From the NCBI RefSeq assembly GCF_003590835.1, contig NZ_QYUQ01000002.1:1178001-1242000 (forward strand): 64,000 nucleotides of DNA, given 5' to 3'. Origin of the DNA: Noviherbaspirillum sedimenti. Its GTDB lineage: Bacteria > Pseudomonadota > Gammaproteobacteria > Burkholderiales > Burkholderiaceae_D. The notes below the pieces were generated by a model, which had not been told where the DNA came from, ran no database searches, and saw nothing but the letters and a program-made list of their open reading frames with translations. Position numbers and translations under genes: made by a program. Numbering within the stretch: the first letter of the stretch is position 1; each line of letters starts with the position of its first letter. Below, one piece after another: positions 11,220 through 63,330 of this stretch.

Positions 11220-14200
11220 CTATGGCCGTTTAACCCGGAACCAGGCGGCGTACAGCGCCGGCAGGAACAGCAGGGTCAAGGCGGTGGCGATGATCAGTCC
11301 GCCCATGATGGCGACCGCCATCGGCCCCCAGAATACTGAACGCGACAGCGGGATCATGGCCAGCACGGCCGCCGCCGCCGTCAGGATGATCGGCCGGAAG
11401 CGCCGCACCGCAGCCTCGACGATGGCGGTCCAGGGTGCGCTGCCGGCGGCGATATCGTGTTCGATCTGGTCGATCAGGATCACCGAATTGCGAATGATCA
11501 TGCCGAACAGGGCAATCACGCCGAGTTGCGCGACAAAGCCGAAGGGCGTCTGCAACAATAATAGTGCCATGGCAGCGCCAGCCACGCCGAGCGGCCCGGT
11601 CAGGAACACCAGCAGTGCGCGCGAGAAACTATGCAGTTGCAGCATCAACAGGGTGAAGATGATGAAAATCACCAGCGGCACATTGGTGGCGATCGACTCC
11701 TGCGCCTTGCCGCTGTCGGCAGCAGCGCCGGCCAGTTCGATGCGATAGCCGGGCGGTAATTCGGCGCGCAGTTGTTCGAGCTTCGGCGAGATCTGCGAGG
11801 ACACGGTCGGCCCCTGGATCGTATCGAGCACGTCGGACTGCACCGTGACTGCCCATTCCCTGCCCTCGCGCCACACCACGCCCGGCTCCCAGACGAAGTG
11901 CGCGCGGGCCAGCTGCGACAAAGGCACGCTCCTGCCGCTGGCGGTCTGCAGGTTAGCCTCATTGAAGGCGCTGATGGTGGCACGCTCCTCGAAGGGCTGG
12001 CGGGCGACGAGATCGATCAGCTTGTCGCCCTCGCGGAACTGGCCGACGGTGCTGCCCGACAGGATCGTGTTGGCGGCGCGCATGACCGTCTGCGAACTGA
12101 CGCCGAGCGCGCGCATGCGGTCCTGGTCGAGATCCAGGCGCAAGACCTTGATGGACTCGTTCCAGTCGTCGTTGACACCGACGGTATTCGGATTGGCGCG
12201 CATGATTTCCTTGACCTGATCGGCAATCGCACGCACCTTGGTCACCTCATCGCCGCTGACGCGGAACTGCACGGGGTAAGGCACCGGCGGGCCGTTCGGC
12301 AAGAGCTTCACGCGCCCGCGCACTTCCGGGAAATCATTCTTGAAAATAGCCACGAGCTTCAGGCGCAATGCCTCGCGCGTCTTCAGGTCCTTGGGCAAGA
12401 CCACGAATTGCGCGACATTCGACTGCGGGAAAATCTGGTCAAGCGGCAAATAAAAACGCGGACTGCCGGTACCGACATAACTGGTGACGCTCCTGACGCC
12501 GTCCTGCCCCAGCACGAAGGCTTCGAATTTTTTCGCCTGGGCTTCGGTGGCCTGGAACGATGAACCTTCCGGCAGCCACATTTCCACCAGCAATTCCGGC
12601 CGGCTCGAATCCGGGAAAAATTGCTGCTCGATGAAGCGGAAACCGAACACGCCCAGCGCAAACACCGCCAGGGTCAGCGCGATGGTGGTCTTGCGCCATT
12701 CCACGCACCAGTTCACCACCGCGCGGAAACGGCTATAGAAAGGCGTGTCGAATAATTCATGATGACCGTCGGCATGGGCGGATGGCTTCACCTTCAGCAA
12801 GACATAACCGATGTACGGCGTAAACAGGACGGCCACGACCCACGATATCAGCAAGGCCAGCGCATTCACCGAAAACATCGAAAAGGTGTACTCGCCCGCC
12901 ACCGACTTGGCCAGGCCGATCGGCAAAAAACCGGCCGCCGTGATCAGGGTCCCGGTCAGCATCGGCATCGCGGTCGAAGTGTAGGCGAACGTGGCGGCGT
13001 CGAAGCGCGACATTCCCTCTTCCATCTTGCGCACCATCATCTCCACCGCGATGATGGCGTCATCCACCAGCAAGCCCAGCGCGATGATCAGTGCGCCTAG
13101 CGAAATCTTGTGCAGGTCGATGCCGAAGATGTACATGAACAGGAAGGTCACCGCCAGCACCAGCGGGATCGTCAGCGCCACCACCAGGCCGGGACGCACG
13201 TCCAGGCGCAGCGGTTTCGTATGCAGGCCGAGCGCGACGAAACTGACCGCCAGCACGATCAGCACGGCTTCCGCCAGCACTTTCAGGAATTCGCTGACCG
13301 AGGAAGCGACGATTTCAGGCTGGTTCGAGACGCGCTCGAGCTCGATGCCAACCGGCAGCCCGGCCTTGATCTGGCCGACCGTGCTTTCCAGCATGTGTCC
13401 CAGGCGGATGATGTCGCCGCCCTTTTCCATTGAAATCCCGAGACCGATGACTTCCTTGCCGTTGAAACGCATCTTGTCTTGCGGCGGGTCCTTGTATTCG
13501 CGCTTGATGGTGGCGAAATCGCCCAGGCGGAACGTGCTGCCGCTGGCGCGCAACTCGAGGTTTTCCAAGTCTTGCACGGTTTGCAGGGCGCCGCTGACGC
13601 GCACCTGCAGGTTATCCGAAGGCGTGGCCAGCACGCCGCTGGCTTCCACGGCATTTTGCGAATTGAGTTGGGCAACGACGGCATCGAAGGGGATGCCGAG
13701 CTGCGCGAACTTTTTGTGCGAGAACTCGATATTGATCTTTTCATCCTGCACGCCGTACAGCTCGACCTTGGCCACCGACGGGACTTTCAGCAATTGCTGG
13801 CGCACGAAATCGGCATATTCCTTCACCTCGGCATAGGTAAAGCCGTCGCCGGACAGCGCGAAGATGCTGCCGAAGGTATCGCCGAATTCATCATTGAAGA
13901 AAGGTCCCACCACCCCCGCCGGCAGGGTGCCGCGGATGTCGCCGATCTTCTTGCGCACCTGGTACCAGGCCGCCGGAATTTCCTTGGGCGGGGCCGATTC
14001 GCGCAATTGAATGATGATCAGGGTTTCACCCGGCTTGGAATAGCTGCGGATGCGGTCGATATACGGGGTTTCCTGCAGCTTCTTTTCCAGCTTGTCCGTC
14101 ACCTGGTTGGCCATTTGCAGGGCGCTGGCGCCCGGCCAGTAGGCCCGCACCACCATGGCGCGGAAGGTAAATGGCGGATCCTCATCCTGGCCGAGCTTGC

Positions 14201-14300
14201 TGTAGCCGAGAACGCCGCCCAGCAGCAGCACGACGATCAGGTAGCGTGTCAGCGGAATATGTTCAAGCGCCCAGCGCGACAGGTTGAAGCCACCCTTCAT
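11220..14300 (-). CDS. RND-family efflux transporter permease
   Basis: A 1026-residue inner-membrane proton antiporter of the RND superfamily that exports drugs or hydrophobic compounds as a trimer. The sequence has one N-terminal membrane helix, a large periplasmic loop, the helix 2-6 block with the GLLVDDAI segment of TM4, a second periplasmic loop and the C-terminal helix block. It starts by a 4-base ATGA overlap with the upstream membrane fusion protein gene. The N-terminus (LEHIPLTRYL, GQDEDPPFTFR) recalls the TriC/MexK-like branch more than AcrB, but the substrate cannot be told from sequence. No outer-membrane channel gene is adjacent. Confidence 0.92.
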   Translation of the reverse strand: MKGGFNLSRWALEHIPLTRYLIVVLLLGGVLGYSKLGQDEDPPFTFRAMVVRAYWPGASALQMANQVTDKLEKKLQETPYIDRIRSYSKPGETLIIIQLRESAPPKEIPAAWYQVRKKIGDIRGTLPAGVVGPFFNDEFGDTFGSIFALSGDGFTYAEVKEYADFVRQQLLKVPSVAKVELYGVQDEKINIEFSHKKFAQLGIPFDAVVAQLNSQNAVEASGVLATPSDNLQVRVSGALQTVQDLENLELRASGSTFRLGDFATIKREYKDPPQDKMRFNGKEVIGLGISMEKGGDIIRLGHMLESTVGQIKAGLPVGIELERVSNQPEIVASSVSEFLKVLAEAVLIVLAVSFVALGLHTKPLRLDVRPGLVVALTIPLVLAVTFLFMYIFGIDLHKISLGALIIALGLLVDDAIIAVEMMVRKMEEGMSRFDAATFAYTSTAMPMLTGTLITAAGFLPIGLAKSVAGEYTFSMFSVNALALLISWVVAVLFTPYIGYVLLKVKPSAHADGHHELFDTPFYSRFRAVVNWCVEWRKTTIALTLAVFALGVFGFRFIEQQFFPDSSRPELLVEMWLPEGSSFQATEAQAKKFEAFVLGQDGVRSVTSYVGTGSPRFYLPLDQIFPQSNVAQFVVLPKDLKTREALRLKLVAIFKNDFPEVRGRVKLLPNGPPVPYPVQFRVSGDEVTKVRAIADQVKEIMRANPNTVGVNDDWNESIKVLRLDLDQDRMRALGVSSQTVMRAANTILSGSTVGQFREGDKLIDLVARQPFEERATISAFNEANLQTASGRSVPLSQLARAHFVWEPGVVWREGREWAVTVQSDVLDTIQGPTVSSQISPKLEQLRAELPPGYRIELAGAAADSGKAQESIATNVPLVIFIIFTLLMLQLHSFSRALLVFLTGPLGVAGAAMALLLLQTPFGFVAQLGVIALFGMIIRNSVILIDQIEHDIAAGSAPWTAIVEAAVRRFRPIILTAAAAVLAMIPLSRSVFWGPMAVAIMGGLIIATALTLLFLPALYAAWFRVKRP

Positions 14301-15472
14301 TTGGCAGCCTCCCCTGCGCTGGCGACGCCGGTGCCCACCGCATGCCCAGGTGCTTCCGCGCCGAGGATCTTGACCTTCTGGCCTGTCTTCAACAGGTTGA
14401 CGCCGGCGGTCACCACGGTCTGCCCGGGCGCGAGGCCGCCGGCGATCAAGACTTCATTACCGGCAGGGCCGGCCAGTTGCACCGGCACGAGCCTGACCGC
14501 GCCATTCTCCACCACCCAGACGGCGCTGACGGATTTCTCCTGAAACAAGGCGGAAAGCGGCAGCTTGAGCAGCGGCTGCGCGCTGGCCGCGGCAAAGCTG
14601 ACATAGGCCGTCATCCCGAGCGTGACGTCGGCCGGCGCATCCGGCAGCGCCACCCTGGCCGTGTAGGTGCGGGTGGCCGGGTCCGCCATGGGAGCGATCT
14701 CGCGGATCTTGCCGGCATAGGCCGTATCCGGCCGGGCCCAGATGCGTACCCGGACATCGCTGATGCGGCGCAGTACCTCCACCTTGTCTTCCGGGATGCC
14801 GATGACGATTTCCTTTTCGCCCATCTGCGCCACGCGCAAGACCGGGCTGCCGGCAGCAACCACCTGACCGACTTCGGCATCGATGGTGGTCACCACGCCG
14901 TCGGTGTCCGCCACCAGCGTCGCATAGCCGGCCTGGTTCGTCTGGTTGCGGTAAGCAGCCACTGCCTGGTCATAACTGGCGCGTGCCGCCTGGTCGGCAG
15001 TGTTTTTTCCATCGAGCACAGCCTGGCTGACGAAATTCTTTTCGCGCAATTCCTGGTAGCGTGCGCGTTCCGCCCGCGCCAGTTGATGATTACTTTCCGC
15101 TGCCTTTAATGCAGCATTGGCTTGCATCTGCGCCAATTGCAAGTCCTGCGGGTCCAGCTGCATCAAGACCTGGCCGCGCTTGACGGTAGCCCCGACATCG
15201 ACCTTGCGCGCGACGATCTTGCCGCCGACCCGAAAACCCAGGCGCGATTCGATACGCGGCTTGACTTCTCCGGGAAACTCGGCAATCACATCGACCGGCT
15301 TTGCCGCCAGGCGCACTACCCGCACCGGACGGATCTCTTCCGGTTTGGGGACGGGCCGGGAGCAGGCGCCGAGCATGGCGGCGATTGCCAGCCCCAGCAA
15401 CCAGGGGATGGCGCGCTTGCGTGCAAACGCAAAGGAGTGCGCTTGTGCAGACGAATTGGTCATCTTGGCCAT
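14297..15472 (-). CDS. RND efflux periplasmic adaptor (membrane fusion lipoprotein)
   Basis: The 391-residue adaptor links the RND permease to an outer-membrane channel. Signs are a signal sequence with lipobox LGAC near residue 34, a barrel-sandwich hybrid (lipoyl) domain split around an alpha-helical hairpin of about 80 residues, and beta-barrel segments. I chose the ATG at 15472 because AAAGGA lies just upstream; earlier codons in the frame are not credible as coding. The stop overlaps the permease start. The channel protein must come from elsewhere in the genome. Confidence 0.9.
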   Translation of the reverse strand: MAKMTNSSAQAHSFAFARKRAIPWLLGLAIAAMLGACSRPVPKPEEIRPVRVVRLAAKPVDVIAEFPGEVKPRIESRLGFRVGGKIVARKVDVGATVKRGQVLMQLDPQDLQLAQMQANAALKAAESNHQLARAERARYQELREKNFVSQAVLDGKNTADQAARASYDQAVAAYRNQTNQAGYATLVADTDGVVTTIDAEVGQVVAAGSPVLRVAQMGEKEIVIGIPEDKVEVLRRISDVRVRIWARPDTAYAGKIREIAPMADPATRTYTARVALPDAPADVTLGMTAYVSFAAASAQPLLKLPLSALFQEKSVSAVWVVENGAVRLVPVQLAGPAGNEVLIAGGLAPGQTVVTAGVNLLKTGQKVKILGAEAPGHAVGTGVASAGEAAK

Positions 15473-15593
15473 CACTTTTCCTTTACTATGCTGGTCGGAA
15501 ATATTGCAAAAAACACTGTAAAAACCGAAGCAAAAACGGCACTGATATTGCTTTAACCGGTAGTGCATGGCCGTTTTGGCAAGATCTATTTAA

Positions 15594-15657
15594 TTACTGA
15601 CTTGTTAGTTATTAATTATAAATGCGCGTTAAAAACTTGCATATGACTTTTTAGTCA
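15594..15657. promoter_or_regulatory. Two palindromic candidate operators upstream of the efflux genes and hpnC
   Basis: Site one (15594-15611) is TTACTGAC-TT-GTTAGTTA, an imperfect palindrome. Site two (15644-15657) is the perfect TGACT-TTTT-AGTCA. They lie in the 209-base divergent gap between the adaptor gene and hpnC. Their form resembles operators of TetR-type efflux repressors, but no such regulator is encoded nearby. Confidence 0.4.
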
Positions 15658-15681
15658 GTTACACGAAAACAATGTTGAACA

Positions 15682-16500
15682 ATGTCTGTTAATCACTACG
15701 AAAACTTCCCGGTCGCTTCATTTCTGTTGCCCCCAGAATTGCGGCCGGCGGTGGCAGCGATTTATGCCTTTGCCCGCAGCGCCGACGATCTCGCCGATGA
15801 AGGCGAGCTGCGGCCGCAGGAACGCCTGGACGCCCTCGCCGCCTATGAAAGCGAACTGGACCGGATCGGCCGCGGCGAAACGCCAACGGATCCGATGTTT
15901 GCCGCACTGGCGCGGGTCGTCGCCGACTACACCCTACCGCTGCAAGCACTGCGCGACCTGCTGTCGGCCTTCAAACAGGACGTGGTGACGCCGCGCTACG
16001 CGAGTTTTGCCGATGTGCTCGATTACTGCCGGCGTTCGGCCAATCCGGTCGGCTTGCTCATGCTGCATTTGTATGGCGCGGCCGACGCCAGGAATGTGGC
16101 GCAGTCGGATGCCATTTGCAGCGCCCTGCAGCTGATCAACTTCTGGCAGGATGTGGCAATCGACTGGGACAAGGACCGTGTCTACCTGCCGCAGGAGGAT
16201 TTGCAACGCTTCCAGGTCGCCGAAGCGGATATTGCCGGCGGCCGCGACACGCCGGCATGGCGGCAATTGATGGCATTCGAAGTCGCGCGAGCACGCGCGC
16301 TGATGCTCTCGGGCGCGCCGCTGGCCGTACGCCTGCCGGGGCGCATCGGCTGGGAATTGCGCCTGGTGGTCCAGGGCGGCTTGCGCATCCTGGAGCGGAT
16401 CGAGGCGGCCGATTATGATATTTACCGTCGGCGGCCGCAGCTGGGCAAGGCGGACTGGCTGCGGATGGCATGGCGCAGTCTGTGGATGGGCGCGCACTGA
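15682..16500 (+). CDS. hpnC: Hydroxysqualene synthase HpnC
   Basis: HpnC turns presqualene diphosphate into hydroxysqualene, the middle step of the bacterial three-gene route to squalene. The 272-residue protein belongs to the squalene/phytoene synthase family. It has the first aspartate-rich motif DDLAD at about 35-39 and the second in NFWQDVAIDWDKDR. It is followed by hpnD and hpnE in the same direction, which settles its role as HpnC over other prenyl synthases. A 121-base gap separates it from hpnD. Confidence 0.92.
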   Translation: MSVNHYENFPVASFLLPPELRPAVAAIYAFARSADDLADEGELRPQERLDALAAYESELDRIGRGETPTDPMFAALARVVADYTLPLQALRDLLSAFKQDVVTPRYASFADVLDYCRRSANPVGLLMLHLYGAADARNVAQSDAICSALQLINFWQDVAIDWDKDRVYLPQEDLQRFQVAEADIAGGRDTPAWRQLMAFEVARARALMLSGAPLAVRLPGRIGWELRLVVQGGLRILERIEAADYDIYRRRPQLGKADWLRMAWRSLWMGAH

Positions 16501-16621
16501 AAGCGGAAAACGTGCCATAGAAAACGGGCCATGGCAGGGGCGCGGCACAAATTCAGTTTGGCCGCGGCCGTCCAATTCGGCTAGCATAGCGCCTTTGCCT
16601 TGCAGCACTTAGATCGCTTCC

Positions 16622-17455
16622 ATGTCGCCAGACGAATATTGCCAAGAAAAGGCCGCCAAAAGCGGCTCCAGCTTTTATTACAGCTTCCTGTTCCTGCCGC
16701 CGGAGCGACGCCGGGCGATTACCGCCCTGTACGCGTTTTGCCGCGAGGTGGATGACACGGTGGATGACTGCACCGATGTATCGGTGGCGCGCAACAAGCT
16801 GATGTGGTGGCGCAAGGAAATCACGGCGATGCTGAACGGCAGCCCGAGCCATCCGGTGACCCTCGCCCTGCAGCCGCATCTGGTGCCGTTTGCGCTGGAT
16901 GGCCAGCATTTGCTGGCGATTATCGATGGCATGGAAATGGACCTGGACCAGACCCGCTATCTCGATTACGCGGGGCTGCAGCGCTATTGCTGGCACGTCG
17001 CGGGCGTGGTCGGCATCCTCTCGGCCAGCATTTTCGGCTATACCCAGCCGCAGACCCTGCAATATGCAGAAAAGCTCGGGCTGGCCTTCCAGCTCACCAA
17101 CATCATCCGCGACGTCGGCGAAGATGCGCGCATCGGCCGCATCTACCTGCCGGTCAACGAACTGCAGCAATTCAATGTGACGGCCGCCGACTTGCTCAAT
17201 GCGCGCCACAGCGACAATTTCGAAAAGCTGATGCGCTTCCAGGTACAGCGCGCGCAATCGGTTTACGACGAGGCCTTCGCCCTGCTACCGGCAGCGGACC
17301 GGCGCGCCCAGCGCCCCGGCCTGATGATGGCGGCGATCTACCGCACCCTGCTGACCGAAATCGAGCGCGATAGCTACCATGTGCTGAACCAGCGCATTTC
17401 GCTCACGCCGATCCGCAAACTCTGGCTGGCGTGGAAAACCTATGTGCGCGGCTAA
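16622..17455 (+). CDS. hpnD: Presqualene diphosphate synthase HpnD
   Basis: HpnD condenses two farnesyl diphosphates to presqualene diphosphate, the first step of the HpnCDE route. The 277-residue protein has the motif DDTVD at about 44-48 and NIIRDVGEDARIGR as the second metal-binding block. Both are typical of squalene/phytoene synthases. It lies between hpnC and hpnE. The 14-base gap to hpnE indicates a common transcript. Confidence 0.93.
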   Translation: MSPDEYCQEKAAKSGSSFYYSFLFLPPERRRAITALYAFCREVDDTVDDCTDVSVARNKLMWWRKEITAMLNGSPSHPVTLALQPHLVPFALDGQHLLAIIDGMEMDLDQTRYLDYAGLQRYCWHVAGVVGILSASIFGYTQPQTLQYAEKLGLAFQLTNIIRDVGEDARIGRIYLPVNELQQFNVTAADLLNARHSDNFEKLMRFQVQRAQSVYDEAFALLPAADRRAQRPGLMMAAIYRTLLTEIERDSYHVLNQRISLTPIRKLWLAWKTYVRG

Positions 17456-52775: not shown

Positions 52776-53759
52776 CTAGCCGGCCAGGGCTTGCCACGGC
52801 TGGCTCTGGCGCCAGGCCCGCCGCCATTCGGACGGCAGCACCAGGCACAGGGCGCCGATGTCGGCCACCAGCGCCCCCAGCGCGGCAGGCTTGAGTTCAA
52901 CGCCGGCGGTCAGGGCCGGCAAACGGGAGGCGATTTCATGGCGCACCAGCGCTTCCAGCCAGTCGCCATGATGCATCCAGACACTGCCGCCGATGACGAA
53001 GACCCGGGTGTCGAGCGTGGCCGCAAGGTTGTACAGGGCCTTGCCGAACCAGTGCGCCGCCTGCTCCACCAGGAGCCGTTCGGCCGCGACACCCTGCCGC
53101 GCCGCAGCGAAGATGGCGGCGGCACCCTGCCCGCCGCGCAGGCCGAGGTTGCGTCCGGAAACCAGCGCTTCGACATCGCCACGGTTGCCGCAACCGCATA
53201 GCGCATCGGATTGTCCGGACAGCAGCATGTGGCCGGCATGACCGGCATTGCCGTGCTTGCCCAGCAGGATATGACCGTCGACGCACAGGCCGAAGCCGAT
53301 GCCGGTGCTCCAGGTGACGTACACGCAATCGGCTTCCTCCTGCAAGGCGCCGAAGCTGCGCTCGCCGGTCAGGGCGGCGATGCAGTCGTTGCGGATCACC
53401 ACGTCGGCAAAGCGTTCACGCAATACCGCTTCCAGCGGAATGCGGGTCCAGTCGTTGGGCAGGTCGGCGGCGCCGGAGAGACCGCCGCACAGGTTGGGAG
53501 TGACCAGCGCGATACTGCCGCCGGCAGCGACGAAGGGGCCACAGGAACTGACGCCGAGCCGGGCGATGCGGCGTGCGTCGATGCCGGCGTGCGCGCAAGC
53601 CTGCTCCAGCAAGGCGATTGCCTGCTCGCCGACTGCCCGTTCGCTGCCACTGCGCGCCGTCGGCGCCACCACCCGCGCCAGCGGACCGGAAACATTTGCC
53701 ACCGTGGCGGCCAGTTTGGTGCCGCCGATATCGAGTGCGCCGAGATAAATGGGTGCCAT
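52776..53759 (-). CDS. ROK family sugar kinase (probable glucokinase)
   Basis: A protein of about 327 residues. The phosphate-binding motif is DIGGTKLAA near residue 10, the catalytic base is Asp in RNDCIAALTGE, and the ROK zinc site is GHAGH then CGCGNRGDVE. The third zinc cysteine of CxCGxxGCxE is Asp here. It is last in the trehalose operon, overlapping the GH15 gene end, so phosphorylation of glucose released from trehalose is the likely role. ATG codons at 53777 and 53759 are both possible; neither has a good ribosome site. Confidence 0.82.
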   Translation of the reverse strand: MAPIYLGALDIGGTKLAATVANVSGPLARVVAPTARSGSERAVGEQAIALLEQACAHAGIDARRIARLGVSSCGPFVAAGGSIALVTPNLCGGLSGAADLPNDWTRIPLEAVLRERFADVVIRNDCIAALTGERSFGALQEEADCVYVTWSTGIGFGLCVDGHILLGKHGNAGHAGHMLLSGQSDALCGCGNRGDVEALVSGRNLGLRGGQGAAAIFAAARQGVAAERLLVEQAAHWFGKALYNLAATLDTRVFVIGGSVWMHHGDWLEALVRHEIASRLPALTAGVELKPAALGALVADIGALCLVLPSEWRRAWRQSQPWQALAG

Positions 53760-53763
53760 GGCG

Positions 53764-55551
53764 TCAGTATGCCGCATCCCAGTGAATACTCAAGCGCATG
53801 GCGCACTGGATCAGCCCAACCATGCTGTACGTCTGTGGAAAATTGCCCCACAGCTCCCCGGTTTCCGGCGCCACGTCTTCCGACAACAGGCCAAGATGGT
53901 TGCGGTGCGCCAGCACTTTCTCGAAGAGTTCGCGAGCCCGCTCCTTCTGCCCGATGTGCGCCAGCGCCAGGATCCACCACTCGGTGCAGACCAGGAAAGC
54001 CGTCTCGGGCAAGCCAAAATCGTCTTCCTCGTCGTAGCGCAACAGGAAGTCGCCGCGCCGCAGGTGCCGCTCGATCGCCGTCACCGTACCAGCCAGACGG
54101 GGATCGTCCGCCGCCAGGAAATTGAATTCCCCCATGAGAAGCAGGCTGGCATCGAGGCGGTCGCCGCCAAAGGTGGACACGAAGCTGTTCATGTCGGCGT
54201 TCCATGCCTTGTCGCAAATCTCGCGATGGATGATGCCGGCATGCTCGCGCCAGTACGCGGCGCGCTGCGGCAGGCCCAGATGGCCGGCGATCGAGGCCAG
54301 GCGGTCACAAGCGGCCCAGCACATGATGCTGGAAAAGGTGTGCACGCGCTGGGTGCCGCGCAATTCCCAGATGCCGGCGTCGGGCACATTGTAATAGCGG
54401 ATCGCCTGCTCGCCCAGGCGCTCCATGTCCTGAAAGATCGCCTGGTCGGCCGGGCGCTCCAGGCGGGCGTCGAAAAACGCCTGGCTGCTGGCGAGGATCG
54501 CAGCGCCGAAAACGTCGTTCTGCACCTGGCGATAGGCCAGGTTGCCCACCCGCACCGGACCCATGCCGCGATAGCCGGCCAGACCGGGCGCGACGTTTTC
54601 CTCCAGGGCGATCTGGCGGCGGATGCCATAGACCGGCTGCAACGGCACGTCACGGGTGTCGGCGATGATGTTGAGGATATAGCCCAGATAGTGTTCCATG
54701 GTGCGTGTCACGCCCAGGCGATTGAGCACATGGACGACGAAATAGGCGTCGCGCAGCCAGCAGAAGCGGTAATCCCAGTTGCGCGTACTGTGGGGCGCTT
54801 CCGGGATCGAGGTGGTCATGGCGGCGATCACGGCGCCGGTATCCTCGAACACGTTCAGCTTCAGGGTGACGGCTGCGCGGATCACCACATCCTGCCATTC
54901 GAACGGAATGGCCAGGCTGCGCACCCAGTCGGCCCAGTAGGCGCGCGTACTTTCGTAGAAGGATCGGCCGACTTCGTGCGGCGAGCCGTTGAGCGTCTCG
55001 TCCGGCCCCATCAGCAGGGTGAGGCTGTCGTGCAGGAAGAAAGGACGCTCGTCGATGACCGCCGACACCGAGGCATCGGTGGTCAGGCGCATCGACTGCG
55101 CGCCGCCGGAGAAGGAAATATGGTGCGCGCCGCAACGGGTCTCGGCACGGTGCCGGCCATATTCGACGGCAGGGCGAATCTGCAAGGCAATGCGCGGCCG
55201 GCCCGCCACCTTGCGGATGATGCGCACCAGCATTGCTGGTGAAAACATGCGCCCGAACATATAAAAGCGCGGCGCGAAGTCGATCACCTCGATCGCATTG
55301 CCCTGGCCATCGGCGATTCGCGTCAACAGGATCGCCGTATTGCGCTCGTAGCGCTGCTCGACCGGCTGGCCGCCCTCCAGAAGGACGCCGATCATGCCAT
55401 CGCGGGGTTCCCGCCCGGCCGGCTGCAGCAAGGCGCAGCACAGCGGATCACTATCGAAATAGGGATAGCACCACCAGACGATGGCGGCGTTCCGGTCGAT
55501 CAGAGCGCTGGTGCGGCAATTGCCGATCAAGCCCAAATCCAGGTTGCTCAT
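53764..55551 (-). CDS. Glycoside hydrolase family 15 protein (possible trehalase)
   Basis: A 595-residue cytoplasmic protein with an N-terminal beta domain (LGLIGNCRTSALID, a GH15 hallmark) and an (alpha/alpha)6 barrel. Barrel signatures are NWDYRFCWLRDAYF and, near the end, GNFPQTYSMVGLI. GH15 enzymes are glucoamylases, glucodextranases or trehalases. Position between otsB and a sugar kinase favours trehalose or a related glucoside as substrate. It starts 15 bases after the otsB stop. No signal peptide is seen. Confidence 0.88.
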   Translation of the reverse strand: MSNLDLGLIGNCRTSALIDRNAAIVWWCYPYFDSDPLCCALLQPAGREPRDGMIGVLLEGGQPVEQRYERNTAILLTRIADGQGNAIEVIDFAPRFYMFGRMFSPAMLVRIIRKVAGRPRIALQIRPAVEYGRHRAETRCGAHHISFSGGAQSMRLTTDASVSAVIDERPFFLHDSLTLLMGPDETLNGSPHEVGRSFYESTRAYWADWVRSLAIPFEWQDVVIRAAVTLKLNVFEDTGAVIAAMTTSIPEAPHSTRNWDYRFCWLRDAYFVVHVLNRLGVTRTMEHYLGYILNIIADTRDVPLQPVYGIRRQIALEENVAPGLAGYRGMGPVRVGNLAYRQVQNDVFGAAILASSQAFFDARLERPADQAIFQDMERLGEQAIRYYNVPDAGIWELRGTQRVHTFSSIMCWAACDRLASIAGHLGLPQRAAYWREHAGIIHREICDKAWNADMNSFVSTFGGDRLDASLLLMGEFNFLAADDPRLAGTVTAIERHLRRGDFLLRYDEEDDFGLPETAFLVCTEWWILALAHIGQKERARELFEKVLAHRNHLGLLSEDVAPETGELWGNFPQTYSMVGLIQCAMRLSIHWDAAY

Positions 55552-55566: not shown

Positions 55567-56388
55567 TTAGAGGCCATGCGCATGGCCGGGGCCGGCCAGT
55601 TGGGCCGCCTTGGCCGTTTCCAGATGGCGCAGCCGGCTGGTCAGTTCATCGAGCAAACGGCCGATATCGGCATGCCGGGCAATACAGAATTCCGCGGCGC
55701 TGCCGTCGATGCATTCCACCCGCACCGAGAGCAGCCCGGCGCGGCGCAGTCGAAACACGGCTTCGTCAGTGACATCGTCGCCGACGTAAATGGCGCCGGG
55801 TGCGCCGCTTCGACGCAGCAATTCGCGCAGCGCGCTGCCCTTGTCAGCCACGCCCGGCGGCAGCAGGTTGAGGACGCACTTGCCGCCGACCATGCGTGGC
55901 GTCGGCGCCAGTTGCGCCGCCAGCGCCGTCAGCCAGGCAAGGCTGGCGGCGTGATCGGGCGCGCCACGGTAATGCAGCGACAGCGAATAGTGCTTGTCTT
56001 CGATCAGGATGCCGGTGCCGCGCACCGGCTCTTGCGCCAGCCAGCGTTCCAGCTGCGCGCGCCAGGCCCGGCACAACGCCGCATGGGCGGCCAGCTCGGC
56101 TTCGTCGGCCATGCCTTCCAGGCCATGGTTGCCCACCACATAAGGCGGATCGAACCCCAGGCGCGCGCGGATATCGGCCAGGGACCGTCCGCTCAGGATC
56201 GCGATCGGCGTCAGCGACGACAGGCTCAGCAGGCGTTGCAGCACGTCTGGCGGCATGCGGGCATGGCCAGGTTCGCTGGTGATCGGCGCCAGGGTGCCGT
56301 CGAAATCGAAGGCGCACAGCACGCCGGGCTGCACAATGCTGTCCAGGCGCGCGCGACCGGCGGCGGAAAACAGCGATTGCATCGTCAC
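55567..56388 (-). CDS. otsB: Trehalose-6-phosphate phosphatase
   Basis: Removes phosphate from trehalose-6-phosphate to give trehalose. The 273-residue HAD-family protein has motif I FDFDGTLAPI with nucleophile Asp28 and Asp30. Motif IV is YVGDDVTDEAVF, and cap-domain residues lie between. Its start overlaps the otsA stop by 4 bases (ATGA), so the two are translationally coupled. It is followed by the GH15 gene. Confidence 0.93.
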   Translation of the reverse strand: MTMQSLFSAAGRARLDSIVQPGVLCAFDFDGTLAPITSEPGHARMPPDVLQRLLSLSSLTPIAILSGRSLADIRARLGFDPPYVVGNHGLEGMADEAELAAHAALCRAWRAQLERWLAQEPVRGTGILIEDKHYSLSLHYRGAPDHAASLAWLTALAAQLAPTPRMVGGKCVLNLLPPGVADKGSALRELLRRSGAPGAIYVGDDVTDEAVFRLRRAGLLSVRVECIDGSAAEFCIARHADIGRLLDELTSRLRHLETAKAAQLAGPGHAHGL

Positions 56389-58646
56389 ACCACCCGGCGC
56401 AGCGAGGCGCGGCTATGCGAATGGATTTTCGTCATGATGCGCTCGCGCTGGCGCAGGCGTGCGGCGTCCAGCAGCATGCGTCCGGCCCAGCGGTAGACAT
56501 TGAAATCCTTGACCAGCGAGCGCATGCTGCGCATGCGCTCGCGCTGTTCGATCTCCGGCATGGTCAGCGCCCGGTACAGGGCTTCGGCGCTTTGCTCGAT
56601 ATGGTAGGGGTTGACCATCAGGGCTTCGTGCAATTCCCGCGCGGCGCCGGTGAATTGGGACAGCACCAGCACGCCGCGCTCGTCGTCGCGCGCGGCAATG
56701 AATTCCTTGGCCACCAGGTTCATGCCGTCGTGCAGGCTGGTGACCACGCAGACATCGGCAGCGCGGTACAGGCGATTGACCTCTTCGGCATTGTGATGCG
56801 CAATCCGCAGGATGATCGGCACATATACGCCGCTGCCGAAGCGCCGGTTGATGCGTTGCGCCAGGCTGCGCACGCGCGCCTCGAAATTCTGGTATTCATC
56901 CAGCGAGGAACGGCTCGGCGCGGCGATCTGCAACAGCGTAAACTTGCCGACCAGGGCCGGGTAATCTTCCAGCATGCGCTCGACCGCCTGGAAGCGCTCG
57001 ATGATGCCCTTGGTATAGTCGAGCCGGTCCACCCCCAGCCCCAGCAGATGGTTTTCCGGCAGCGCCAGTTCCTGGTGCACCGCCTGGCGGCAGGCAGCCA
57101 CATCCGGCGCGCCCGGCTCCGGCTCCGGCCAGGCGATCGAAATCGGATAGCTTTCCACCTGGGTCAGCTTGCCGCCGTAGGAAATGGTCGACGCCTCGTG
57201 CTCGATGCGGGTTTCCAGGTAACGGTCGACGGTTTCAAGGAAATTCTTGCAGTGGAAACTGGTATGGAAGCCAAGGATGGTGCTGCCCAGCAGCCCTTCG
57301 AGGATCTCCTCGCGCCATGGGCAGATGCCGAAGGATTCCGGGTTCGGCCAGGGGATGTGCCAGAAGGTGATGATGGTCGCCTTGGGCAAGGCTTCGCGCA
57401 CCATGCGCGGCAGCAGCGCGAAGTGGTAATCCTGCACCAGCACCACCGGATCGTCGGTACGCGCTTCCTGCACCACCGCATCGGCGAAGCGCTGGTTGAC
57501 CTCGACGTAACGGTCAAAGTCGGCGGAGCGGAACACCGGGCGCACGTGGGCGATATGGCAAAGCGGCCACAGGCCCTCGTTGGCGAAGCCATAATAGAAG
57601 CCCTGCTCTTCCTCCTTGCTCAGCCAGACCCGCCGCAGCGTATAGCTGGGGCGCGCCGGCGGCACCTTGACGCGGTCGTTGCCGTCCACTGCGGCGCGGT
57701 CGCCGGAACCGCCGCCGTGGGCGATCCAGGTGCCCGAGCAGGCGCGCATGACCGGCTCGACCGCCGTCACCAGGCCGCTGGCCGGACGGTTGACCTGCAG
57801 GCCGGTGGCGGTCTGCACGTGGATGTAAGGCTCGCGGTTGGATACCACCAGCACTTCGTCGCCTGCCAGTTCCTCGCGCAGGATCGTGCGCAACTTGTCC
57901 GGCGTCCACTGGCGCGAAGGATCGTCGCGTACGCGGCGGTCCTGGCTGTATTCTTTCAGCAGCGCGCGCAAGTCGCCGGCCAATGGTTGGATACTGGCCG
58001 CCACCTCGTGCGGACCATGGCGCGCATGCGGCCGCGTATCCTTGACCAGGACGTCCTTGACCGCGCTGATCACGCCGCGCCAGCTCAGGTGGGCGATGAA
58101 GATGGTCAGCAGCGCCATCACCACCGCCAGCATGGCAAACAGCGCCAGCACATACTTGCGCGCATCGGCGCTGCGCCGCTCGATAAAGCTGGTGTCGTGC
58201 ACCAGGATCAGCTTGCCCTCGTAATGGCCATCCGCCTGCAGCGGGTTTTCGGTGACATGCACCGAGCCTTGCGGCAGCGACACCATACTTTGCCGCAAGG
58301 TCTGCTGCCAGCCGGCGTCCATGCACCCGAGCGATTGCGGATAGGTGCGTGTCTTGTACAGCAACTTGGCATTGTCGTCGCAAAAGGCCAGCGCAAACAG
58401 GCGATCGTCCTGCACGGCGCGGTCGAACAGTTCGGCGATCTTCTTTTGCGATTTCAGCGGCACGTATTCCTGCAACGGGTCTTGCAAGGCGGCAGCCAGC
58501 ATTTGCGAGCGCGTATCCAGGTCGCGCACGAACCAGCGCAGGGTGAGCTTATCCACCCAGGGCACGACAGCGTAAGCCAGCAGTACCCAGACCAAGGCCA
58601 CCGGCAGGATGAATTTCAGGGATAGGCGGAACGAGCCGGATTGCAT
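56385..58646 (-). CDS. otsA: Membrane-anchored trehalose-6-phosphate synthase with sensor-like N-terminus
   Basis: A 753-residue fusion. Residues 11-31 and 165-187 are membrane helices around an extracytoplasmic domain of about 130 residues, followed by a HAMP-like linker. From about 264 to 735 is a GT20 synthase that joins UDP-glucose and glucose-6-phosphate. Synthase motifs include [26 protein letters not shown] and [10 protein letters not shown], so the catalytic part is complete. E. coli OtsA is about 474 residues and soluble. The fusion suggests synthesis tuned by an envelope signal such as osmotic change (inference). It heads the otsA-otsB-GH15-ROK operon. Confidence 0.9.
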
Positions 58647-58889: not shown

Positions 58890-58966
58890 GCGGCTGTAGC
58901 TCAGCTGGATAGAGTACTTGGCTACGAACCAAGGGGTCGTGGGTTCGATTCCTGCCAGCCGCACCA
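58890..58966 (+). tRNA. tRNA-Arg (ACG)
   Basis: A 77-base cloverleaf. Acceptor GCGGCTG pairs with CAGCCGC, the anticodon stem CTTGG / CCAAG has loop CTACGAA reading ACG, the T-loop is GGGTTCGATTCC, and CCA is encoded. Confidence 0.96.
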
Positions 58967-59752: not shown

Positions 59753-60862
59753 GTGCGCAAGAAGATACTTACCGATTGGGAATCCCGCTTCCAGGCGATC
59801 GTCTCCAACACGCCCGGCCTGGTATTCCAGTGCCTGCTGCGCGGCGATGGCACGCTCGACTTTCCCTATCTGAGCGATGGCTGCCATGCCTTGCTTGGCA
59901 TCACGCAGCAACAATTGCATGACGCCCCCGCGCGCCTTTCCGAGCTGCTGCTGCCGGAAGACCGCGCCTCGTTCCAGGATGCGATGAAGGCCTCGGCTTC
60001 CAGCGGCAAGAGCTGGAACTGGGAAGGCCGCATCCGTGTCGTGCAATGGAATGACATCAAGTGGATCAACCTGCGCTGCACCCCGCGCCTGCCCGTCGGA
60101 GCGGAGCCGCAATGGGATGGCATCATGTCCAACATCACAGAAAGCAAGCTGGAACAGGCGGAAATCAAGCGCTCGCGCGCGCAACTGGCGGAACTGTCTG
60201 CACACGTGGAAAAGGTCAAGGAAGAAGAGCGCACGCGCATTGCCCGCGAAATTCACGATGACCTCGGCGGCAACCTGACTGCAATCAAGATGGCGCTGGC
60301 GCTGCTGGTCAAGCGCCTGCCACCGGAATCCGCCAAGGATCTGAGCGACAAGGCCCATTACGTCGATATCCTGGTCGACCGCACCCTGGAGTCCATCCAC
60401 CGCATTGCCGGCGATCTGCGGCCTGGCGTGCTCGATTTCGGCATCACTGCCGCCATCGAATGGCAGGCGCGGGAATTTGAAAAACAGACTGGCACCCCCT
60501 GCACGCTCAGTGCGGACACGCAGGAAATTGAATTGCCCCAGGAACAAGCTACGGCACTGTTCCGCATCTTCCAGGAAGCGCTGACCAATATCAGCAAGCA
60601 TGCCGGCGCCAGCCGGGTGAAAGTGAAACTGTTGCGCGCCGAGCAGCATCTCCTGCTAGAAGTGGCCGACAATGGCAAGGGCATTTCCGCCGCCGATCAG
60701 GGCAAGCCGCACTCCTTCGGCATCCGCGGCATGACCGAACGGGCGCATGCGTTGGGTGGAGAATTCTGCCTGGACAAGGCCGCGCCGCCCGGCGACGGCT
60801 GTGTTGTACGGATCCGAATCCCGCTTGAGCATGCCTTGACGTCTACTGCCAATAGGCAATAA
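59753..60862 (+). CDS. PAS-domain histidine kinase, NarX type
   Basis: A 369-residue soluble kinase. A PAS domain at about 13-130 (VSNTPGLVFQCLL to GIMSNITESK) is followed by a coiled coil. A HisKA_3 dimerisation domain has His168 in REIHDDLGGNLTAIK, and an ATPase domain has ALTNISKHAGAS, VADNGKGI and the FGIRGMTERA glycine box. The start is GTG. It is followed after 8 bases by a NarL-type regulator, its likely partner. With no membrane helix, the signal is probably intracellular. Confidence 0.9.
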   Translation: MRKKILTDWESRFQAIVSNTPGLVFQCLLRGDGTLDFPYLSDGCHALLGITQQQLHDAPARLSELLLPEDRASFQDAMKASASSGKSWNWEGRIRVVQWNDIKWINLRCTPRLPVGAEPQWDGIMSNITESKLEQAEIKRSRAQLAELSAHVEKVKEEERTRIAREIHDDLGGNLTAIKMALALLVKRLPPESAKDLSDKAHYVDILVDRTLESIHRIAGDLRPGVLDFGITAAIEWQAREFEKQTGTPCTLSADTQEIELPQEQATALFRIFQEALTNISKHAGASRVKVKLLRAEQHLLLEVADNGKGISAADQGKPHSFGIRGMTERAHALGGEFCLDKAAPPGDGCVVRIRIPLEHALTSTANRQ

Positions 60863-60870
60863 TAGCAGGC

Positions 60871-61521
60871 ATGACCACCAAAAACTCCATCAAGGTCTTG
60901 ATTGCAGACGACCATGCTATCGTACGCGCGGGTTTGAAGCAGATTCTTGCCGACACCAGGGATATCGCTGTCGCCGGCGAGGCGGAAAACGGCCTGGATG
61001 CCATCAAGCTGGTGCGCCAGGGGAAAGGCGAGGTCTTGCTGCTCGACATATCCATGCCTGACCGCAACGGCATCGAAGTCCTGAAGCAGGTACGCAAGGA
61101 AGTGCCGGATATCGCCGTGCTGATCCTGACCATGCATCGCGAAGACCAGTATGCGATCCGTTCCCTGAAAGCGGGCGCAGCCGGTTACCTCAACAAGCAA
61201 AGCGCGCCGGCCGAACTGGTCAACGCCATTCGCCAGGTCGCTGCCGGCCGCAAGTATGTGAGTCCGACGCTGGCCCAGGAACTGGCTAACCAGATCAATG
61301 AAGAACGTGAAGTGCCGCTGCACGAAACCCTGTCCGACCGCGAATTCCAGACTCTGACCATGATCGCTTCCGGCAAGACCGTCAGCGATATCGCGCGCGA
61401 GCTGGTACTGTCGGTCAAGACGATCAGCATGTACCGCGCGCGACTGCTGCAAAAGATGAAACTTCGACACAATGCGGAATTGACACATTACGCCATCAAG
61501 AATCAGCTGGTCGAAGAATAA
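60871..61521 (+). CDS. NarL/LuxR-type response regulator
   Basis: A 216-residue two-domain regulator. The receiver has DD at about 13-14, phospho-acceptor Asp59 in LLLDISMPD and Lys in YLNKQ. A LuxR helix-turn-helix at about 150-212 contains LSDREFQTLTMIASGKTVSDIA and SVKTISMYRARLLQKM. It is paired with the upstream kinase. The next genes are a diguanylate cyclase and flagellin, which might be targets, but no binding site is identified. Confidence 0.92.
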   Translation: MTTKNSIKVLIADDHAIVRAGLKQILADTRDIAVAGEAENGLDAIKLVRQGKGEVLLLDISMPDRNGIEVLKQVRKEVPDIAVLILTMHREDQYAIRSLKAGAAGYLNKQSAPAELVNAIRQVAAGRKYVSPTLAQELANQINEEREVPLHETLSDREFQTLTMIASGKTVSDIARELVLSVKTISMYRARLLQKMKLRHNAELTHYAIKNQLVEE

Positions 61522-61695
61522 GCCCCCTCTTTCTGCCTTGACTCTGGCAAAATATTATAATTGCAATTTCGCAACAGGATCCTTCTTGCCCCTGCAGGAT
61601 CCACCGCGACCGACTGAAGCCCTGAAGTAAGCCTGCTTTTGCCGCCTGTTCAATCCTTCGCTGCAAGGTCGCTCGTTCGATTATCGGAAAAACAC

Positions 61696-63330
61696 ATGAA
61701 AGACCAGTCAGCACGCGCAAAAACAGGGATGTCGCAACAGTCCGATAGGCCGAACGAGCAGAATCCGGCGGAAATCGCCCGCGAGACAATTCGCCAGCTG
61801 GGACTGCGCCGAATAGCGCCGACGCCGCAAGCATATCGGGATATCTACGAGGAAATTGTCGGCAATACCGGCCAGCGCGATGTGCGCGAAATGCTGGCAG
61901 CCTTTGCTGAAAGCGTCATCCTGTCGCCCGCGCTGACCGATGCAGGACATCACCTGCGGCGCGCCGCCGAGGCGGAGGACTGGGAAGAATATGGCCAGCA
62001 GCTGGTGCTGCTGAGCGAACAGTTAGCGCAACCGGCCGCCGCGCCCGGCGCGCCTGCGACAGCCGCAACAGGCCTGGCGACGGCAGCTTCGGAGCAGGCA
62101 GGCGCGCCGAAGCTGGCGGCGGCCGATATACCAGCCTACTCGCTACGCGACATGCTGGCGCGCACACTCGGCTTCGCCGTGGTCTCGCTGTTGCAAAACG
62201 ACGCGGAACTACGGGATGAAACAGAACAACTGGCACAAGCCGTCAAGCTCGTCAGCAGCAGGGGCGCGCTGGAAGATATCGGCGCGCGATTGAAACAACT
62301 GTATTTCAAGATCGAGATCAAGAGCACGGATTTGAGCGAACAACAGACGCAGCTGCTGCGCCTGTTCAAGCTGGTACTGGAAAACATCGGGGAATTGCTG
62401 GAAGACGACAGCTGGCTGCGCGGCCAGATCGCCGGGGTACAGAATATCCTGGCCGGACCGATCAGCCACGCCGCACTGCACGACGCCAGCCGCAGCCTGA
62501 AGGAAGTGATCTACAAGCAAGGCTTGTTGAAGCATAGCCTGGCCGAAGCCAAACTGACGGTGAAAAACATGATGATTACCTTTATCGATCGTCTGAGCGC
62601 CGTTGCCAACACCACCGGCGACTACCATGAAAAAATGACGGCCTATTCGGAAAAGATCAGTCAGACCACCGACATCATGGCGCTCAACAAGATCCTTGGC
62701 GACGTCATGCGCGACACCCGCAGCGCCCAGCTCGAAGCCCTGCGCTCACGCGATGAAATGCTGGCGGCGCGGCAGCAGGCGCATGAAGCCGAAAGCCGCA
62801 TCCATCAACTCGAATCGCAACTCGAGCAGATGAGCGAACTGGCGCGCGAAGACCAGCTGACCGGCAGCCTCAACCGGCGCGGACTGGACGATGTCTTTGA
62901 ACGCGAGGTGGCGCGCGCCGACCGCCGCAAGGGACAGTTGTGCATCGCCCTGCTCGACCTCGACGATTTCAAGCGCATCAACGACACCCATGGCCACCAG
63001 GCCGGCGACGAAGCCCTGATCCACCTGGTGCGGGTGATCAAGGATACCCTGCGTACCATGGACGTGATCGGCCGCTTCGGCGGCGAGGAATTCATGATCG
63101 TGCTGCCCGACACACCATTGGAATCCGCCTTGCAGACCGTGACCCGGGTGCAGCGCGAACTGACCAAGCGCATTTTCATGCACAAGCATGAACGTGTCCT
63201 GATCACTTTTTCGGCTGGCGTCGCCCTGCGCAAGGATGGCGAAGACCAGCAAGCGCTGTTCAAGCGCGCTGACGATGCCCTTTACCAGGCCAAGCATGCC
63301 GGAAAAAACCGTGTTGTCGCCGCGGAATAG
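61696..63330 (+). CDS. Diguanylate cyclase with helical N-terminal domain
   Basis: A 544-residue cyclic di-GMP synthase. About 350 N-terminal residues are mostly helical with an Ala-rich linker (about 100-140) and no recognised sensor fold or membrane helix. A coiled coil leads into the GGDEF domain. The active loop is GGEEF at 462-466, and the I-site RTMD lies five residues before it. I chose the ATG at 61696, after GGAAAA. It precedes flagellin, so a role in motility control is plausible but unproven. Confidence 0.9.
   Translation: MKDQSARAKTGMSQQSDRPNEQNPAEIARETIRQLGLRRIAPTPQAYRDIYEEIVGNTGQRDVREMLAAFAESVILSPALTDAGHHLRRAAEAEDWEEYGQQLVLLSEQLAQPAAAPGAPATAATGLATAASEQAGAPKLAAADIPAYSLRDMLARTLGFAVVSLLQNDAELRDETEQLAQAVKLVSSRGALEDIGARLKQLYFKIEIKSTDLSEQQTQLLRLFKLVLENIGELLEDDSWLRGQIAGVQNILAGPISHAALHDASRSLKEVIYKQGLLKHSLAEAKLTVKNMMITFIDRLSAVANTTGDYHEKMTAYSEKISQTTDIMALNKILGDVMRDTRSAQLEALRSRDEMLAARQQAHEAESRIHQLESQLEQMSELAREDQLTGSLNRRGLDDVFEREVARADRRKGQLCIALLDLDDFKRINDTHGHQAGDEALIHLVRVIKDTLRTMDVIGRFGGEEFMIVLPDTPLESALQTVTRVQRELTKRIFMHKHERVLITFSAGVALRKDGEDQQALFKRADDALYQAKHAGKNRVVAAE

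Follow-up and report, generated by a model that had tools for sequence, protein, structure and literature searches.

A long, probable trehalose-6-phosphate synthase with a receptor-like build in Noviherbaspirillum sedimenti

Why should an enzyme of trehalose synthesis be built like a transmembrane receptor? The question is raised by a gene in the 64,000-nucleotide stretch of Noviherbaspirillum sedimenti DNA analyzed here (i.e., positions 1,178,001 to 1,242,000 of contig NZ_QYUQ01000002.1, assembly GCF_003590835.1; the window), which encodes a long form of the trehalose-6-phosphate (T6P) synthase OtsA. An earlier note, made from the DNA letters, had placed an open reading frame here and described it as a synthase fused to an extracytoplasmic sensor-like module; we recovered the frame at the same positions, with an ATG start, on the minus strand (the note had named no strand). 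The receptor-like build of the protein, with an outer domain and two transmembrane (TM) helices ahead of the enzyme, is clear. We favor, at a probability of roughly 0.58, the view that the long OtsA is a one-component receptor enzyme in which an envelope signal would set T6P synthase activity. Transcription-free envelope control of trehalose synthesis would best explain the anatomy, from which we infer the control, its signal, and the membrane location.

Enzyme, membrane helices, and outer domain

The enzyme part is a complete GT20 synthase domain, as the note had it: residues 264 to 727 cover positions 2 to 470 of the 473 in PF00982 (E = 3.6e-120; 402 bits against a cut-off of 32.5). Its active site was read against relatives collected in two ways. 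A scan of species genomes found at least 584 stretches encoding a relative (not necessarily all long forms), and 80 loci were kept, whose matches to the query begin no later than residue 29 and run at least to residue 669; the best named ones belong to Paucimonas lemoignei and Noviherbaspirillum. A protein search with residues 1 to 262 gave 913 matches, with GT20 on all 120 of the matches listed. Alignment A1 contains 90 sequences, 14 of them from the 119 other proteins listed by that search; 75 of the 80 loci entered A1 and A2, the others being L059 (a stop near the match end), L065 (truncated), and L001, L032, and L046 (near-copies by eye). Following the structure numbering and substrate-binding roles that we take to apply to Escherichia coli OtsA, R9, G22, Y76, W85, D130, and H154 correspond to R271, G291, Y351, W360, D406, and H430, and R262, K267, R300, D361, and E369 correspond to R541, K546, R579, D640, and E648, all kept in 90/90 relatives. 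Fourteen of the 18 E. coli positions probed are identical in every relative; H338 is kept in 88 of the 90, G40 is replaced by Ala in all of them, and L343 and L344 vary.

The product of the long OtsA would be T6P by inference: the protein scored 425.1 bits on the NCBIfam OtsA equivalog (TIGR02400), below the cut-off of 564.85, and was therefore filed as a GT20 member and putative T6P synthase. Glucosylglycerol phosphate was considered as an alternative product and would be less likely, as the glucosylglycerol-phosphate synthase model gave 299.8 bits against a cut-off of 569 and the neighboring OtsB is a T6P phosphatase over cut-off. The OtsA proteins of E. coli and M. thermoresistibile share with the window protein the complete GT20 domain, the conserved active-site residues, and an adjacent otsB. 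They differ from it in lacking the 262 extra N-terminal residues with two TM helices and a sensor-like domain, in belonging outside its clade (stem, 1.74 changes per column), and at the four probed positions that differ or vary.

Residues 1 to 262 match no Pfam family at E values up to 1. Residues 5 to 189 resemble CusS/CopS-type heavy-metal sensor kinases in NCBIfam below threshold (29 bits, where the cut-off is 293; E = 4e-7), a likeness that gives a first hint of a receptor origin for this part. The two membrane helices that the note had put at residues 11 to 31 and 165 to 187 agree with the best 19-residue hydrophobic windows (10 to 28, 2.37; 166 to 184, 2.97), and exactly two such peaks precede GT20 in 88 of the 90 aligned homologs, with three in one and one in another. 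Against maxima from shuffled compositions (mean, 1.81; 99th percentile, 2.61), the second peak is exceptional and the first is not. The pair is nevertheless convincing because of its conservation, its spacing, and the helices of the AlphaFold2 model. Conserved residues of TM1 include F12, P15, A24, and P29 (position 11 is R in 85 of 90 sequences and K in the window protein), and those of TM2 are Y165, T181, A185, S188, and W189.

Between the helices lies a domain of about 133 residues (32 to 164), close to the 130 or so first estimated. The note had proposed comparing a predicted structure of this region with sensor folds. In the AlphaFold2 model, the domain consists of two helices followed by five strands in a PDC/single-Cache-like arrangement, and Foldseek and VIA-align placed it closest to the sensor domains of WalK, CitA, CusS, and DcuS. 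Since such a fold is predicted, the outcome that the note had named as telling against its proposal (i.e., no periplasmic fold) was not found. The model places a PDC fold between two TM helices, as in Cache/PDC sensor domains. Sequence searches gave less. Searching the N-terminal profile against the Protein Data Bank returned nothing significant (best E, 0.074), and a fold search was therefore required. No Cache-clan family matched the window protein; among the 25 of 40 families listed for 76 relatives, CHASE4 was matched in 8 (best E, 0.0015) and sCache_4 in 1 (E = 0.2). An adenovirus E3B family match (34 of 76; best E, 8.7e-4) was put down to chance similarity with a TM segment.

The outer domain holds an invariant pair of cysteines, Cys89 and Cys108, present in 90/90 sequences of A1 (19 positions apart in 89 and 18 in one) and in 20/20 further main-clade sequences, all at 19 positions. 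They probably form a disulfide that closes the domain. A disulfide that switched with periplasmic oxidation would make the protein a sensor of redox or folding state, and a pair kept in all 110 sequences, at one spacing in 109 of them, speaks for such a sensor. Constant cysteine pairs are usually structural, however, and three divergent long forms (L085 to L087) keep the architecture with the pair in none of them (0/3); we regard a redox role as very improbable.

Linker, conservation, and the membrane

Between the membrane part and the enzyme, the note had described a HAMP-like linker. The part of that description that stands is a weak, position-specific likeness directly after TM2; the Pfam HAMP family, which has 20 matches in the genome (E up to 0.001; 19 over cut-off), has none on this protein. 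When a profile of residues 184 to 250 was aligned by hhalign with the 20 HAMP stretches of the same genome, it scored 22.4 across 42 columns in register, with the R-G-E after helix 1 meeting the HAMP G-D and P-E-L-x-P-L meeting D-E-x-x-x-L. None of 300 column-shuffled controls reached this score (maximum, 20.0; mean, 9.1), and when 86 windows spread over the protein were compared, the four top-scoring ones began at residues 169 to 193, i.e., at the linker. The hhalign probability is 40%, and true HAMP halves score 110.9. Residues 193 to 237 may, on this weak profile evidence, merit the name degenerate HAMP-like. With a predicted periplasmic PDC/Cache-like fold and a weak HAMP signature in the linker, the receptor-type anatomy of the original proposal is supported.

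Eleven N-terminal residues are invariant in A1 (W38, A85, C89, C108, D151, R158, S188, P221, W247, L252, and L256), the last three in the coupling helix ahead of GT20. Mean pairwise identity is 0.58 in TM1, 0.65 in the junction at residues 151 to 164, 0.55 in TM2, and 0.52 in the first periplasmic helix; it is 0.27 in the loop at residues 99 to 118, 0.38 in strands 3 to 5, and 0.70 in GT20. The best-kept N-terminal parts would thus be the candidate signal carriers and not the candidate ligand holders, and pocket conservation points to no ligand. Across the 63 loci with a long OtsB match, mean identity to the window is 45.4% for the sensor region and 39.6% for OtsB, so that the membrane part is no less well conserved than OtsB.

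This pattern is also what would be expected if the TM helices themselves responded to the tension, thickness, or hydration of the bilayer and the outer domain served mainly for dimerization, since conservation is higher in the TM helices and the stretches next to them than in the outer pocket. Genes of the MscS channel family add to the case, adjoining otsA in L069, L086, and L087 (directly upstream in the latter two; L085 has a GH15 gene). Among 85 loci whose surroundings were compared, some of them cut by contig ends, 8 have any MscS match and 5 a good one (L018, L037, L069, L086, which is the query source, and L087), where 0.5 to 1.5 would be expected from a density estimate. One such estimate starts from E. 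coli, which has six MscS genes. L037 also carries, at 13843-17059 and about 3.6 kb from the long otsA, a short otsA that is accompanied by an MscS-like gene and an otsB. Against a membrane-state sensor, the adjacency is rare (5 good matches of 85, that of L037 lying next to the short otsA) and was compared only with a density estimate, and the invariant cysteine pair and the retained Cache-like fold would be left unexplained. We therefore consider it rather unlikely. As a pointer to an osmotic cue, the MscS adjacency is only a hint.

The long clade, its variants, and its operons

The note had mentioned long OtsA-like proteins in related bacteria, correctly but with understatement, for these proteins make up a single clade that extends across several phyla. 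In a GT20 tree of 51 hand-chosen sequences (short forms drawn from the order sample and L037 only; midpoint root for drawing), a split with support of 100/100 and a branch length of 1.74 separates 19 short forms from a side that holds 27 long forms, the divergent L085 to L087 (of the same class as N. sedimenti), and two sensor-poor relatives. L084 and L094 were kept out because a second weak stretch gave them odd domain bounds. Since long branches meet, the short form nearest to the long clade is unsure. The missed equivalog cut-off fits a deep, separate clade. Labels on the long side comprise Pseudomonadota, Thermodesulfobacteriota, Myxococcota (one "Deltaproteobacteria" metagenome-assembled genome), Nitrospirota, Acidobacteriota, and Bdellovibrionota; many of these entries are metagenome-assembled genomes, whose labels were taken as given. 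The architecture is old and widespread.

Counts in sampled genomes (own genome included) show how it is distributed. In the order, 31 of 200 genomes have GT20 over cut-off, and 16 of these 31 have the N-terminal domain, which in 16/16 shares an open frame with the GT20 match and ends 3 to 6 bases ahead of it. In the class, 6 of 185 genomes yielded the domain, and in the phylum 7 of 299, where three matches are weak or partial (L091, L092, and L093). L092, which matches across 36 profile columns with E = 5e-4, was attributed to chance. L093 (E = 9e-4) resembles a sensor-HAMP-PAS-PAS-GGDEF receptor, its domains read by eye; in the genome samples, it is the one multidomain protein other than OtsA that the profile matched, though weakly. 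L091 (1231-3111) belongs to the long clade and has lost the outer domain, retaining one TM-like segment, GT20, and a W-S-P-D-T-L-R coupling helix. In L126 (1-3344), of the same clade and from the family of N. sedimenti, the outer domain is absent and no TM-like segment was found; this relative probably lacks the sensor, and it has a long branch and odd letter composition in the tree. A reading of L126 as the bearer of a different, 595-residue N-terminal module was rejected, as that frame overlaps other long frames and the likely, though uncertain, start is about 40 residues before GT20.

These variants bear on whether the N-terminal part is a static anchor that merely tethers synthesis to the inner membrane (e.g., near a transporter or the protected bilayer), with the PDC fold as a relic. 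Two observations speak for an anchor: the pocket region is variable, and L091 keeps a TM-like segment and the coupling helix without the outer domain, as an anchor allows. Moreover, regulation of the long OtsA is deduced from its build. An anchor, however, needs no outer domain of 130 residues kept across 90 aligned relatives, no invariant residues in and around the TM helices (W38, D151, R158, and S188), no two invariant outer cysteines, and no HAMP-like register. For these reasons, we hold an anchor to be unlikely and prefer the receptor enzyme.

The long otsA heads an operon otsA-otsB-GH15-ROK (Table 1). Its stop overlaps the listed GTG start of otsB (GTGTGA), with an ATG following within six bases, and the GH15 and ROK kinase genes overlap by 14 bases; trehalose and glucose, respectively, are the putative substrates of the latter two. 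Among the 85 loci, otsB neighbors the long otsA in 69, GH15 in 48, and ROK in 10. The genome has no second GT20 gene, and neither TreS nor TreY was matched in it at E = 0.001, in a search that left out other routes such as TreT and TreP and whose two models both match in 13 of 14 control genomes. Long OtsA is thus the only enzyme found in the genome for the first step of trehalose synthesis.

Table 1. Coordinates in the window of the long otsA, its parts, and the operon genes downstream
Feature	Window positions	Strand	Basis
Receptor-like OtsA, whole gene, 753 aa	56385..58646	-	PF00982, E 3.6e-120
TM1, residues 10-31	58554..58619	-	Hydropathy, conservation, AlphaFold2 helix 5-64
Predicted extracytoplasmic PDC/single-Cache-like domain, residues 32-164	58155..58553	-	AlphaFold2 fold; Foldseek and VIA-align matches
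Codon of Cys89	58380..58382	-	Invariant, 90/90 in A1
Codon of Cys108	58323..58325	-	Invariant in A1
TM2, residues 165-189	58080..58154	-	Hydropathy, conservation, AlphaFold2 helix 153-203
Degenerate HAMP-like linker (putative), residues 193-237 (helix, flexible connector, helix)	57936..58070	-	hhalign
Coupling helix, residues 247-262 (W-x-P-x-x-L)	57861..57908	-	Conservation; AlphaFold2 helix 249-259
GT20 catalytic domain, residues 264-727	56466..57857	-	PF00982, active-site map
otsB, trehalose-6-phosphate phosphatase	55567..56388	-	PF02358, TIGR00685 over cut-off
GH15 protein, candidate intracellular trehalase	53764..55551	-	PF00723, PF19291; archaeal TreH1 model below cut-off
ROK sugar kinase	52776..53777	-	PF00480; no kinase equivalog over cut-off

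A cluster with the same enzyme trio (T6P synthase, GH15 trehalase, and T6P phosphatase; Rta_36480-36500) is described for Ramlibacter tataouinensis (PMC3164672); the portion of that report used here mentions no sensor or membrane part, and the comparison is by description and not by the Rta_36500 sequence. GH13 enzymes, those of glycogen among them, may be missing from the N. sedimenti genome, a lack that the same portion reports for glycogen in Ramlibacter (PMC3164672). The published three-enzyme cluster was not seen at the four Ramlibacter loci with a long otsA (L053, L054, L059, and L076), beside which neither otsB nor GH15 was found. A DnaB-type helicase is encoded on the opposite strand just upstream of the otsA of L059.

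In the window, a tRNA-Arg (acg) gene at 58890-58966 on the plus strand is divergent from otsA, 243 bases upstream of it. Beyond the tRNA, positions 59753-63330 of the plus strand encode a PAS-HisKA_3 histidine kinase, a LuxR-type response regulator, and a GGDEF protein. The kinase was matched in 1 of the 85 loci (Paucimonas L001), with the regulator adjoining.

Proposed mechanism and its meaning

In the receptor enzyme that we propose, OtsA would span the inner membrane, its N and C termini lying in the cytoplasm and its PDC/single-Cache-like domain in the periplasm. A periplasmic signal would shift TM1 and TM2, and the shift would be relayed via the degenerate HAMP-like helix pair (residues 193 to 237) and the W247 helix to GT20, where the formation of T6P from glucose 6-phosphate and a sugar nucleotide would go up or down. 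The OtsB encoded in the operon would convert T6P to trehalose; the co-encoded GH15 enzyme would hydrolyze trehalose and the ROK kinase re-phosphorylate the glucose, draining the pool. Because the enzymes of synthesis and breakdown would be made together, the trehalose pool would follow synthase activity rapidly, with no need for fresh transcription. Our first guess for the cue is water status, read either as osmolality or through some envelope component that varies with it, and osmolality or a proxy would be the likeliest cue as judged by the pathway, pocket conservation giving no pointer.

Known systems share parts of this scheme. The Cache/PDC receptors (WalK, CitA, DcuS, CusS, and the sCache families) have the predicted outer fold, the TM1-domain-TM2 topology, and perhaps a HAMP-like linker in common with the window protein, whose output, in contrast, is a biosynthetic glycosyltransferase. 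The outputs given in the part of a published census of Cache domains used here are kinases, methyl-accepting chemotaxis proteins, GGDEF/EAL proteins, cyclases, phosphatases, Ser/Thr kinases, ion channels, and transcription factors (PMC4822843). According to the same part, the census models were built from proteins with known signaling outputs (PMC4822843); a divergent domain on an enzyme like the present one could therefore have been missed. The cyanobacterial GT20 enzyme GgpS is likewise a compatible-solute synthase, and its degrading enzyme GghA is co-localized in various cyanobacteria; the rapid control at the level of activity is that of GgpS (PMC6753628). GgpS differs in being activated by ions that enter the cell and by release from nucleic acids, and the excerpt of that study used here mentions no outer sensor domain (PMC6753628). 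No description of a receptor-like OtsA architecture turned up in the open-access literature, most subscription papers being outside the search.

We give about an even chance to the broader proposition that these proteins form a class of transmembrane Cache-type receptors, ancient and spread over several phyla, that act directly by making a compatible solute. The envelope signal would then need neither a kinase nor a second messenger nor gene expression as an intermediate, and the trehalase and sugar kinase encoded alongside would balance the synthesis. A biosynthetic enzyme would then join the outputs of Cache-type receptors. The usual account of how water stress leads to compatible-solute synthesis involves transcription and cytoplasmic ions; a synthase that carries an outer sensor itself would add a third. 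What the cell senses outside would become a question directly testable with one protein, for which nature offers variants without the outer domain (L126 and L091) and without the cysteines (L085 to L087). If the proposal is true, cells may set trehalose production straight from outside signals.
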